Shown: in pieces, positions 1,726-31,323 of the stretch
Position numbering within the stretch: the first letter of the stretch is position 1
Layout of the letters: each line of letters opens with the position of its first letter
Source: a virus
Virus record (IMG/VR): IMGVR_UViG_3300028394_000218
Span: 1-31,761 of that record
Length of the DNA: 31,761 nt
Direction: 5' to 3' (one strand)
Notes under the pieces: model-generated
Told to the model about the DNA's origin: nothing
The model's input: the letters and a program-made list of their open reading frames with translations, nothing else
Databases searched by the model: none
Position numbers and translations under genes: made by a program

Positions 1726-1979
1726 AAAAACTTGCGGCCCTAAATACGCCTACTGACATGGAAATTGAAAAACTAAAAGAGCAACTTAAAAAAGCTGATT
1801 CCAATTTAGACAAAGCATTTTTTGAAGTAAAAGAATCAATCGGGGCTGAACGAAACAATTTATACCCAATTGAACAATGTGAAGCCAATCAAGAAAAAGC
1901 CAGAAGCAATTGGAGTCAAGCTAACGCAGAAGTGCAACGCATCAGAAAACATCTTAGAGAACTCGGAGTAAGAATATGA
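1722..1979 (+). CDS. coiled-coil hypothetical protein
   Basis: 85 residues, predominantly helical. Residues about 10-35 (TPTDMEIEKLKEQLKKADSN) and 55-80 (QEKARSNWSQANAEVQRIRK) have heptad-like hydrophobic spacing with abundant K, E and Q, predicting a coiled-coil hairpin. Start and stop overlap the neighbouring genes as ATGA junctions, placing it directly before the ERF recombinase. A structural accessory role in the recombination module can be guessed but nothing in the sequence proves it. Confidence 0.65.
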   Translation: MKKLAALNTPTDMEIEKLKEQLKKADSNLDKAFFEVKESIGAERNNLYPIEQCEANQEKARSNWSQANAEVQRIRKHLRELGVRI

Positions 1980-2554
1980 ATGAAACACCAATCGGAAAAC
2001 AAATTGCCGCAGCCTTTGTCAAAGCACAAATGGCTTTTGGCCCTGCTTTAAAGACTGCCACAAACCCGCATTTCCGTTCACGCTATGCTGACCTGTCTGC
2101 TTGTGTCGAGGCCGTTATGGACGGTTTAAACCGCAACGGCATAGCTATGATTCAGCAATGCTCAGAATCAGATACCGGAGTGATCGTAGAAACCGTGTTT
2201 ATTCATGAATCTGGCGAAATGCTGAACTGCGGCAAACTCCACGTTCCCGCCGTCAAGCACGACCCACAAGGTTACGGCTCGGCTTTGACATACGCTCGGC
2301 GTTACTCATTGATGGCTGCTTGCGGTATAGCGCCAGAAGACGATGACGGAAACGCCGCCAGCCGCAAGACGGAGATCAAGAAGTCTGAGGTTGATGAATC
2401 AAGAATGGCTGATATGTTGGCGGCAATCGAGGCCACCACCACTGAAGAAGACTTAAAGAAGGCTTACGTTGGGGCTTATGCTTACGCTAACGGTGAACCC
2501 ACTTGGCAAAAACGTGTTATTGCGATTAAAGACAAGATGAAGGGGAAACTGTAA
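1976..2554 (+). CDS. erf: ERF-family single-strand annealing recombinase
   Basis: 192 residues matching the ERF superfamily of phage recombinases, which coat single-stranded DNA and anneal complementary strands (P22 Erf type). The signature region is clear: KTATNPHFRSRYADLSACVE at about 26-45, followed by a long beta-rich core and DPQGYGSALTYARRYSLMAACGIAPEDDDGN, with the conserved YGSALTYARRYSL stretch and acidic loop. The C-terminal 60 residues are a more variable helical tail, usual for the family. It is translationally coupled to a coiled-coil gene upstream and to the YqaJ-type exonuclease downstream (TAATG). The exonuclease-annealase pairing mirrors lambda Red organisation. Confidence 0.93.
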   Translation: MNETPIGKQIAAAFVKAQMAFGPALKTATNPHFRSRYADLSACVEAVMDGLNRNGIAMIQQCSESDTGVIVETVFIHESGEMLNCGKLHVPAVKHDPQGYGSALTYARRYSLMAACGIAPEDDDGNAASRKTEIKKSEVDESRMADMLAAIEATTTEEDLKKAYVGAYAYANGEPTWQKRVIAIKDKMKGKL

Positions 2555-3177
2555 TGGAGCAAAGATCACCAGAATGGTTTGCGGCTCGATTGGGCAAAGT
2601 GACCGCATCGCGGGTAGCTGATGTAATTGCCAAGACAAAAACGGGTTATAGCGCTAGCCGAGACAATTACATGGCCCAACTGGTTTGTGAGCGCATGACC
2701 GGAGTGCAAGGTGAGAGTTTTACCAATGCCGCAATGCAATGGGGAACAGACCAAGAGCCTTTAGCGAGAGCAGCATACGAGGCCGCACAAGACGTTTTAG
2801 TGGACGAGACAGGCTTTGTCATCCACCCAAGGATTCAAGAGGCTGGAGCGTCCCCTGATGGCCTTGTGGGTATGTTTGGGCTTATCGAGATCAAGTGCCC
2901 CAATACGGCGACACACATTGAGACTATCTTGAGCGACAAAGTGCCTGGCAAGTACATCACTCAGATGCAATGGCAAATGGCGTGTACCGAAAGAGATTGG
3001 TGCGACTTTGTGAGTTTTGACTCCAGAATGCCTGAAGGACTCCAGTTGTTTATTAAACGGGTTAAATTCGACCCTATTTATGTAAAAATGTTGGAGTATG
3101 AAATCCAAGAGTTTTTAGACGAGCTAGAAACAAAAATTAAGAACCTCAACGAAAGAAAAAATGGCCACAGTACTTAA
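2554..3177 (+). CDS. YqaJ-type viral recombinase / alkaline exonuclease
   Basis: 207 residues of the YqaJ/lambda-exonuclease fold (PD-(D/E)XK nuclease). The N-terminal QRSPEWFAARLGKVTASR at 3-20 is the family hallmark. The active site is visible as E68 in TDQEPLAR, D102 in GASPDGL, and E112-x-K114 in LIEIKCP. It would degrade one strand of double-stranded DNA ends to give tails for the ERF annealase encoded just upstream, whose stop it overlaps. The 3' end overlaps the next small gene by 17 bases. All catalytic residues are present, so an active enzyme is expected. Confidence 0.93.
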   Translation: MEQRSPEWFAARLGKVTASRVADVIAKTKTGYSASRDNYMAQLVCERMTGVQGESFTNAAMQWGTDQEPLARAAYEAAQDVLVDETGFVIHPRIQEAGASPDGLVGMFGLIEIKCPNTATHIETILSDKVPGKYITQMQWQMACTERDWCDFVSFDSRMPEGLQLFIKRVKFDPIYVKMLEYEIQEFLDELETKIKNLNERKNGHST

Positions 3178-3385
3178 AGAACTTAGCGTTATCACAGGCA
3201 AATACACTGACGCTACGGGCAAAGAAAAGAACCGATATACACGAATTGGGTCTATCATTGACACAAAGAATGGTGAAATGCTTAAAATTGACGTTATCCC
3301 AATGATGGAGGGCGCTTGGTCTGGATGGGCATATATCAACGATCCCCGTCCTAAAGAATCAAAAGACGAAGACATTTCTTTTTAA
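3161..3385 (+). CDS. small SSB-like protein of the recombination module
   Basis: 74 residues: a compact beta-rich region (residues 5-60, with alternating strands such as SVITGKYTDATGKEKNRYTRIGS trimmed of insertions and GEMLKIDVIPM) followed by the tail PKESKDEDISF. That last part closely resembles the acidic tip of bacterial SSB proteins (DDDIPF), used to recruit DNA-repair partners. The length is well below normal SSB, yet an OB-like beta core plus an acidic tip directly after an annealase and exonuclease fits a single-strand DNA-binding role. The family of the core is not certain. The gene overlaps the exonuclease gene by 17 bases, indicating coupling. Confidence 0.7.
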   Translation: MATVLKELSVITGKYTDATGKEKNRYTRIGSIIDTKNGEMLKIDVIPMMEGAWSGWAYINDPRPKESKDEDISF

Positions 3386-4103: not shown

Positions 4104-4304
4104 ATGGCTGCTGACAATTGTAAAGCCTGTAGATATTTCCAAGACCACGGGCCTATGGGAATATGCAGGCGCTTTCCCGCATACGTTAACCGCCACCATA
4201 CTGAGATATGTGGCGAGTTTTCGGCGTTGCCTGTTGAAATGTTGGTTTTGCCAGTTAAGGAAATGACTGAAGTAAAAAAACAACGTGGGAGGCCAAAGAA
4301 ATGA
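4104..4304 (+). CDS. small four-cysteine zinc-binding-type protein
   Basis: 66 residues with a strong Shine-Dalgarno (AAGGAG). Four cysteines, C6, C9, C21 and C36 in NCKACRYF, GICRRFP and EICGEF, form a CX2C-X11-C-X14-C pattern suited to one zinc ion or Fe-S centre. This type recurs in many tailed phages without a known role. The C-terminal KKQRGRPKK resembles an AT-hook, so DNA minor-groove binding is possible. The gene overlaps the GroES-like gene as ATGA and starts a chain of coupled small genes that runs into the terminase. Confidence 0.7.
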   Translation: MAADNCKACRYFQDHGPMGICRRFPAYVNRHHTEICGEFSALPVEMLVLPVKEMTEVKKQRGRPKK

Positions 4305-4579
4305 AACTTACGCCTTTACGCGACAAAATCATTGTCAAGCCAGAAAAACGAATCCAGAGTATCCTGTACGTCCAGACCGCCGAGGCTGAATCTGTGGGTT
4401 ATGTGGTAGCTGTTGGCCCTGAAGCGGCTAAACACTTAAACGTGGGCGAAAAGGTTTATTTTGGAACGCTTGCCAAAGACTACGGGAATGAATACCTCAA
4501 GTTTGAGGAATTGAAGATTAACAACGAGCGCCATCTTAAAATGAGTTGGCAAGACATTTGCTTTGTGGAAGAACTATGA
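4301..4579 (+). CDS. GroES-like co-chaperonin
   Basis: 92 residues, near the 95-100 of bacterial GroES. The start MKLTPLRDKIIVKPEK matches the GroES opening (xIRPLxDRVVVK). SVGYVVAVGPEAAKHLNVGEKVYFG at about 31-55 matches the conserved G-V-V-A-VG ... VG-D-VLFG core, and the end WQDICFVEE matches the terminal E-DILAVIE strand. Residues 17-31, holding a hydrophobic ILY, occupy the mobile-loop position that touches GroEL, although the loop looks short. It should cap the host GroEL ring, as T4 gp31 does, probably to fold the coat protein. It overlaps genes at both ends. Confident by motif reading; no alignment was run. Confidence 0.82.
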   Translation: MKLTPLRDKIIVKPEKRIQSILYVQTAEAESVGYVVAVGPEAAKHLNVGEKVYFGTLAKDYGNEYLKFEELKINNERHLKMSWQDICFVEEL

Positions 4580-29929: not shown

Positions 29930-30346
29930 ATGCTTAAACGTGTTGACATCCGCAAAGAATCTGTACAGACGAAATTGTCGGTACTTCAGAATAAGTGCCT
30001 ACCTTTTGATACGCCGTATGACACAAATTTTGGATCTTGGTGGATTGCTTCTCAAGATGGCGTGGATATTGGCTTTGCGGGGCTTGTGCGTACCGTTAGC
30101 TGGATTGATTGTGGGTATTTATGTCGTGCAGGTGTTGTTCCTACTGCTCGTGGACAGGGATTACAGAAAAAGCTTATCCATGTCCGACTTAGACAAGCAA
30201 AAACTCTTGGGTGGAAATGGGTCATAACTGATACAACAGATAATCCAGCGTCAGCTAACAGTTTGATTGCCACAGGTTTCAAATTGTTTCAACCAACGAA
30301 ACCTTGGGGTTTCAAAAACACGCTTTATTGGCGTAGGAAATTATGA
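29930..30346 (+). CDS. GNAT-family N-acetyltransferase
   Basis: About 138 residues from the ATG at 29930. A GTG at 29909 would add seven residues but has no better Shine-Dalgarno. Acetyl-CoA-binding motif A is RAGVVPTARGQGLQKKLIHV (66-85), with R-G-Q-G-L in the phosphate loop; motif B follows in DNPASANSLIATGFKLF. The substrate cannot be read from the sequence; phage GNATs may modify host proteins, small molecules or virion components. It lies 31 bases after the endolysin and overlaps the metallophosphoesterase gene. The hairpin just before the start may limit its translation. Confidence 0.85.
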   Translation: MLKRVDIRKESVQTKLSVLQNKCLPFDTPYDTNFGSWWIASQDGVDIGFAGLVRTVSWIDCGYLCRAGVVPTARGQGLQKKLIHVRLRQAKTLGWKWVITDTTDNPASANSLIATGFKLFQPTKPWGFKNTLYWRRKL

Positions 30347-31323
30347 TGCCAGTAAAAAGATTTTCTGATCAGCAAATCATTAGCGCCATTGAAAACAGCG
30401 CTTCGATGAATGCAGCAAGTTTGAGTCTTGGCATGAATTTGTCGGGGTTAAACAAACGCCGTAGACGCATTGAGCAGAGAGAAAAAATAGAAATAAGAGC
30501 GCCTAGAGCCACCAAACAATTTGAGCATCTGCAAATAGCTCACATACATCCAACTAAAAAAGACCTTGGCATCTTAAATGGCACAGTTATTGTTTTTAGT
30601 GACGCTCATTTTTGGCCTGGGGTGTATACAACAGCATTTAAAGGTCTTTTGTGGGCCATCAAAGAACTTAAACCCAAGGCAGTTATCGCAAATGGAGATA
30701 TTTTTGACGGGGCAGGTATAAGTCGGCATCCCCGTATTGGGTGGGCCAAAGCTCCATCAGTGATGGATGAACTTAAAGCCTGTACCATCTCTATGGGATA
30801 CATTGAGGAAGCCGCTAAAGAGGCCCGTCACAACGTTAAACTGATCTGGCCCCTAGGTAACCACGATGCACGGTTTGAAACCTTCCTAGCAGCCAATGCG
30901 CCTCAGTATGAACACGTTAAGGGGTTTACCTTGCGTGACCACTTCCCAAAATGGGAGCCTTGCTGGGCAGTTTGGATGAATGAGAACACGGTGGTTAAAC
31001 ACCGATTTAAGGGCGGTATCCATGCTACCCATAACAACACCATGTGGAGCGGCAAGAACATAGTTACAGGCCACCTGCATAGCCTAAAGGTTACGCCATT
31101 CAGCGACTATAACGGGGTGCGTTACGGTATTGATACTGGTACATTAGCGGAGCCTTATGGCCCGCAATTTAAAGACTACACTGAAGAAGGCCCATTAAAC
31201 TGGCGTAGCGGTTTTGCTGTACTGACGTTTGTGGATGGGAATTTGATATTGCCTGAATTGGTAACAACACACGGCCCCGACTCCATTGAGTTTAGAGGCC
31301 GTGTGATTAAAGTTACTCTGTAG
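30343..31323 (+). CDS. calcineurin-like metallophosphoesterase with N-terminal HTH
   Basis: 326 residues; the start may be 30343 or the next codon (30346). The metal-binding signature is D87-x-H89 (FSDAHFWPG), GD at 118-119 (NGDIFDGAG), GNHD at 172-175 and GHLH at 243-246, all characteristic of two-metal phosphoesterases. The first 60 residues are a small HTH-like region (SDQQIISAIENSASMNAASL, then GMNLSGLNKRRRR) and probably bind DNA, so a nuclease or repair role is attractive though not proven. The gene overlaps the GNAT stop at its 5' end and converges with the leftward acidic-protein gene (11-base overlap at the 3' ends). Confidence 0.88.
   Translation: MMPVKRFSDQQIISAIENSASMNAASLSLGMNLSGLNKRRRRIEQREKIEIRAPRATKQFEHLQIAHIHPTKKDLGILNGTVIVFSDAHFWPGVYTTAFKGLLWAIKELKPKAVIANGDIFDGAGISRHPRIGWAKAPSVMDELKACTISMGYIEEAAKEARHNVKLIWPLGNHDARFETFLAANAPQYEHVKGFTLRDHFPKWEPCWAVWMNENTVVKHRFKGGIHATHNNTMWSGKNIVTGHLHSLKVTPFSDYNGVRYGIDTGTLAEPYGPQFKDYTEEGPLNWRSGFAVLTFVDGNLILPELVTTHGPDSIEFRGRVIKVTL

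Follow-up and report, generated by a model that had tools for sequence, protein, structure and literature searches.

A probable compact single-stranded DNA-binding protein in the ERF–YqaJ unit of a freshwater phage and its relatives

Phage single-stranded DNA-binding proteins (SSBs) encoded beside annealases are already known. Small viral proteins of this kind include the SSBs of filamentous phages, of about 78–87 aa; to our knowledge, these gene V type proteins have no role that involves an SSB-like tip, and they are not found in annealase–exonuclease units. The smallest bacterial SSB reported has 141 aa (PMC2964679). In SSB, Trp40 and Trp54 stack on ssDNA (PMC4137731), and the C-terminal tip binds partners: in E. 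coli SSB113 (P176S), Ser in place of the penultimate Pro weakens this binding, the KD for RecG changing from 3.1 to 23 µM (PMC10164576), and poor partner binding of SSB113 is described in PMC4118853 as well. The HK620 SSB is a 21 kDa monomer whose gene adjoins that of the phage annealase Sak4, and its stimulation of Sak4 depends on its six C-terminal residues, NDYPPF (PMC5928155).

A protein comparable to these is encoded in a 31,761-nt stretch of freshwater phage DNA (IMG/VR record IMGVR_UViG_3300028394_000218, positions 1 to 31,761), hereafter called the window. The ORF 3161–3385 on the + strand translates to MATVLKELSVITGKYTDATGKEKNRYTRIGSIIDTKNGEMLKIDVIPMMEGAWSGWAYINDPRPKESKDEDISF, 74 aa followed by a stop codon. 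A preliminary description, made from the sequence alone, had reported a 74-residue protein ending in ESKDEDISF, encoded third after ERF and YqaJ genes, and this was confirmed by translation and by Pfam and PHROGs matches. The features of the unit are as follows:

1976..2554, + strand: ERF-family single-strand annealing protein, 192 aa (PF04404, E 5.1e-22; phrog_2324 Erf-like, E 2.6e-42)
2554..3177, + strand: YqaJ-family exonuclease, 207 aa (PF09588, E 1.5e-30; phrog_149 exonuclease, E 4e-50)
3161..3385, + strand: compact SSB-like protein ("mini-protein"), 74 aa (translation; family alignments)
3167..3265, + strand: conserved beta-hairpin, mini-protein residues 3–35 (AlphaFold2 model, alignments, hhalign)
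3344..3364, + strand: short variable linker, mini-protein residues 62–68 (codon changes in the subclade; length varies in relatives)
3365..3382, + strand: SSB-like acidic tip DEDISF, mini-protein residues 69–74, predicted to be disordered (alignments, AlphaFold2)

The ERF and YqaJ genes overlap by 1 nt, the YqaJ start lying over the ERF stop, and the YqaJ and mini-protein genes overlap by 17 nt, the start codon of the latter being within the YqaJ gene. Judging from these overlaps, the three ORFs may be translationally coupled. Hundreds of relatives and synonymous conservation rule out a chance ORF, and a toxin or antitoxin identity was dropped, as it had no supporting context. Directly 5' of the ERF gene and overlapping it, there is an 85-aa ORF (1722–1979), coiled-coil-like by weak Pfam matches, which could belong to the ERF–YqaJ unit as an additional, fourth gene.

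The mini-protein resembles the bacterial-type SSB (PF00436), including those of MW202520, MW202674 and IMG/VR relatives, in its location beside ERF, its flexible linker of variable length and its acidic tip with a C-terminal Phe; in contrast to them, it is about half as long, has no PF00436 match and no predicted OB fold, and carries Ser before the final Phe. The earlier statement that known SSBs are about twice its length holds for bacterial SSBs, but not for the filamentous-phage ones. To the latter, the likeness is that of a similarly small viral protein, presumed in the case of the mini-protein to bind ssDNA; no sequence match to the gene V type proteins was found, and the mini-protein, unlike them, lies in an annealase–exonuclease unit. 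With the HK620 SSB, it shares the place beside an annealase and a six-residue acidic tip, whereas the size and the partner, Sak4 rather than ERF, are different.

Three queries retrieved 192, 122 and at least 548 relatives of the mini-protein from IMG/VR, and further branches were also found; none were retrieved with the protein P0002. The bacterial genome collection contained a single fragment, in a Betaproteobacteria MAG, and as judged from this collection, the family appears to be essentially viral. Cultured or named phages with relatives include Methylophilaceae phage P19250A, Shewanella phage ZP9 and Vibrio phage ValSw3-3, along with phages of Bordetella, Cobetia, Sulfitobacter, Microcystis and Pseudomonas. 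Neither Pfam (E 1) nor NCBIfam gave a family match, and the three PHROGs profiles that match the family, phrog_18187, phrog_37570 and phrog_37560, are each annotated as unknown function. The window protein (P0001) matches phrog_37570 directly at E 0.004; the link is clear through intermediates and the family-wide alignment, where the conserved core can be aligned between the window protein and the three-profile group. Pseudomonas members of this group are encoded after ERF or RecT–YqaJ and end in DDDIPF or DDDIHF; they belong to the same family as the window protein but have a longer core insert and linker. Most relatives are annotated as hypothetical proteins, while six Pseudomonas or spring-phage records say single-stranded DNA-binding protein, the basis being unstated. 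Every branch has the same architecture, with a core of ~62–80 residues followed by a linker and then the tip, and the invariant or near-invariant core positions include G13, Y15, G20, K23 and G30 in window numbering.

The distribution of the mini-protein was compared with that of the OB-SSB. PF00436, the OB-domain profile, matched neither the mini-protein nor anything else in the window record, and it was absent from all 65 records carrying the mini-protein (49 and 16 more). Likewise, no OB-SSB was found in 230 mini-protein loci (1.48 Mb). MW202520, MW202674 and G141, which have related terminases, lack the mini-protein and encode an OB-SSB after ERF instead; in two phages with an OB-SSB and no mini-protein, the terminases are 72–76% identical to that of the window. 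Similarity of the terminase was the main criterion for a set of 25 records, 15 of which have ERF (three of these 15 were added by hand): 12 encode the mini-protein, three an OB-SSB, and none both or neither. When the ERF of a phage with an OB-SSB was taken as the starting point, 80 loci were obtained, 72 of which encode an OB-SSB without YqaJ or the mini-protein; one (L445) encodes YqaJ and the mini-protein, and seven have neither SSB type, six of them ending soon after ERF. The mutual exclusion has no exception in the loci compared; since these share kinship, the counts do not represent independent events. The mini-protein is encoded in recombination or replication units in place of other SSBs, as a phage SSB would be, and this genome context supports a putative SSB function. 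The SSB-type role in the annealase–exonuclease unit proposed in the preliminary description thus gains support from the replacement of a true OB-SSB in related phages, and the mini-protein is probably the phage's own compact ssDNA-binding protein.

Two of the loci found from ERF are worth describing. The ERF of L445 is of the type seen in phages with an OB-SSB, yet this locus encodes YqaJ and the mini-protein, which suggests that it may have arisen by module exchange. In L446, 4 kb located 3' of ERF contain neither SSB type.

The upstream neighbour abuts the mini-protein gene in 199 of 205 loci, at distances from −17 to +11 nt, and the start codon lies inside the preceding gene, in most cases YqaJ, or a short way behind it. 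The YqaJ gene is present in 203 of 230 mini-protein loci and adjoins the mini-protein in 39 of 43 representative members. Other neighbours are phrog_5715 exonuclease, ERF, RecT with Holliday resolvase, Sak and Rad52; the mini-protein is located beside exonucleases in Cobetia and Sulfitobacter phages and just after a helicase in a Bordetella phage. The annealase and nuclease partners change while the mini-protein stays, as is expected of an SSB.

Among the 223 window ORFs of at least 40 aa, only the mini-protein has an SSB-like C-terminus. In related loci, this pattern is found in 90 of 136 unique family proteins and in none of the 785 background ORFs; given these counts, the tip is no chance feature. 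A C-terminal Phe is present in 72 of 84 window-type and in all 45 P19250A-type proteins. The exceptions, 12 among the window-type proteins, include FN, FS, FP and FPI endings, and FN also ends three of 38 true phage OB-SSBs. When 37 distinct window-subclade sequences are compared pairwise, the last codon has on average 0.348 synonymous changes and 0 nonsynonymous ones, unlike the linker, where nonsynonymous change exceeds synonymous change. Within this subclade, whose compared sequences are related, the terminal Phe is, judging from the codon changes, under purifying selection. Conservation of the tip in homologues, named as a check in the preliminary description, is borne out both by the final Phe and by the synonymous-only last codon. 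The longer members (93–114 aa) end in DDDIPF, and also in DADIPF, DDEIPF and similar variants, while the linker, which in the family can be as short as a few residues or exceed 50, frequently abounds in Q, P, A and G, and in the longer members in A, P and Q. Three members run on past a DDDIPF-like tip (L082:5989–6426 in MW202512, L362:3004–3327 in a Microcystis phage and L363:2989–3339 in a Sulfitobacter phage); in these, the terminal carboxylate used by partner pockets should be hidden.

The penultimate Pro of the bacterial-type tip is absent from the window protein, which has Ser before the final Phe; Asn or Ser takes this position in 19 of 25 subclade members. Pro is found there in all 45 P19250A-type members, in all 35 Phe-ending OB-SSBs from related phages and in 30 of 30 SSBs from the order to which the bacterium of the single MAG match belongs, which may not be the order of the host. 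The preliminary description had also suggested that the protein hijacks host SSB partners. For the window protein, this is doubtful, as DEDISF has Ser where SSB113 carries its P176S substitution. Given this Ser, we regard docking of the window tip to the phage's own ERF or YqaJ as at least as likely as docking to host proteins, and for this branch probably as the likelier of the two. The relatives of the mini-protein that end in DDDIPF could bind host partners too.

The AlphaFold2 model of the window protein, built from 96 sequences, has strands at residues 3–16, 22–35, 38–43 and 58–60 (mean pLDDT 81.6), with residues 67–74 forming a disordered tail. The four-stranded sheet recurs in the second model, made for a relative of 102 residues (pLDDT 78.1). 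Both are monomer models, in which an obligate oligomer may be missed. Foldseek comparison of the two models with the PDB revealed no convincing match (best E ~0.7), and the best VIA-align Z values, 2.2 and 2.7, were with unrelated chains. Neither the sequence nor the profile comparison with PDB chains gave a useful match, and the viral structure library matched only uncharacterised phage proteins. The OB fold considered earlier is therefore unsupported, both models being four-stranded sheets that match no solved OB fold; SSBs are missing from the Foldseek and VIA-align results, although this does not by itself exclude the fold. These structural results speak against an SSB, as do the net charge of the core, which is only about +1.3, and the members that lack a terminal Phe or continue past the tip.

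As for its origin, the mini-protein might be a reduced bacterial-type SSB, in which the OB domain was trimmed mainly to the strand 2–loop–strand 3 hairpin and the tip was kept, an explanation that does not compete with the proposed function. Profile comparison with hhalign does place the hairpin on SSB residues 35–58, with Y15 and Y26 on Trp40 and Trp54, and the core-only score was equalled in one of 150 column shuffles. However, the match is weak, with a core-only probability of 5.7%; against SSB, the mini-protein core and a YqaJ control profile score alike (18.9 each), and neither AlphaFold2 model looks like SSB. We consider such a reduction unlikely. Homology to the bacterial SSB is not claimed, given the equal score of the control; the alignment of Y15 and Y26 is suggestive only and may serve as a lead for mutagenesis. 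We tentatively consider another origin, possible if somewhat doubtful, in which a non-OB fold independently gained both strand coating and an SSB docking tip, and the tip of the window subclade was later retuned from host partners to the phage's own annealase or exonuclease. If this is true, the mini-protein would be smaller than any SSB known to carry a tip of this kind.

Two further explanations would deny the mini-protein a strand-coating role. It could be an adaptor that mimics the SSB tail and, without coating DNA, either tethers repair proteins of the host or competes for them with the host's SSB. The tip is indeed its most recognisable SSB feature, and the core matches no known DNA-binding fold, but the mini-protein takes the slot of a real SSB gene, conservation is much higher in its core, whose hairpin has invariant Gly, Tyr and Lys residues, than in the linker, and most of the window subclade is without the Pro that host partners prefer; an adaptor is thus improbable. 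A role as a subunit that assists the YqaJ exonuclease, in the manner of a loading or processivity factor, is still harder to accept and, in our opinion, very improbable. The frequent presence of YqaJ and the position of the start codon at its end would suit such a subunit, yet there are members beside Sak, Rad52, ERF or RecT with no adjacent YqaJ or, in Bordetella phages, after a helicase, and phages of the same type with an OB-SSB fill the slot even though they have no YqaJ.

For a compact ssDNA-binding protein, the preferred reading, the following order of events can be proposed. The YqaJ exonuclease would resect double-strand ends, and the mini-protein would coat the exposed single strand through its small conserved beta-sheet domain. 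Its flexible acidic tail ending in Phe would recruit an annealing or processing partner, and ERF would then anneal the complementary strands in phage recombination and replication. The HK620 SSB, whose tip is required by Sak4, offers an experimental precedent for such recruitment. What the analysis establishes is the family, the conserved tip, the place of the gene in the unit and the mutual exclusion with the OB-SSB; the ssDNA binding, the identity of the partner and the oligomeric state in which the protein would act are what we infer here.

Within the literature searched, the grouping of the window protein with three PHROG families into one compact, OB-profile-negative family that substitutes for the OB-SSB is apparently new. 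If the reading is correct, hundreds of environmental phages, as well as cultured phages of Pseudomonas, Shewanella, Vibrio, Sulfitobacter, Cobetia and Bordetella, have an SSB that annotation pipelines have mostly missed, and three PHROG families of unknown function would gain one. The SSB docking tip may then have arisen twice or persisted while the DNA-binding domain was drastically reduced. So small an SSB, with a tip that varies in nature, would also allow testing how annealases choose their SSB partners, which would be useful for recombineering.

Elsewhere in the window, Rfam and tRNA scans of the whole stretch gave no matches. A 102-aa ORF at 724–1032 on the − strand has several Cys pairs (CQFC, CLQC, CTDC, CRKC) and looks zinc-binding, possibly of the HNH type. 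A GroES-like co-chaperonin gene is located at 4301–4579, and relatives with similar terminases have an annotated co-chaperonin GroES near the terminase. The 326-aa ORF at 30343–31323 resembles calcineurin-like phosphoesterases; in the relative MW202674, an annotated calcineurin-like phosphoesterase adjoins the recombination genes.
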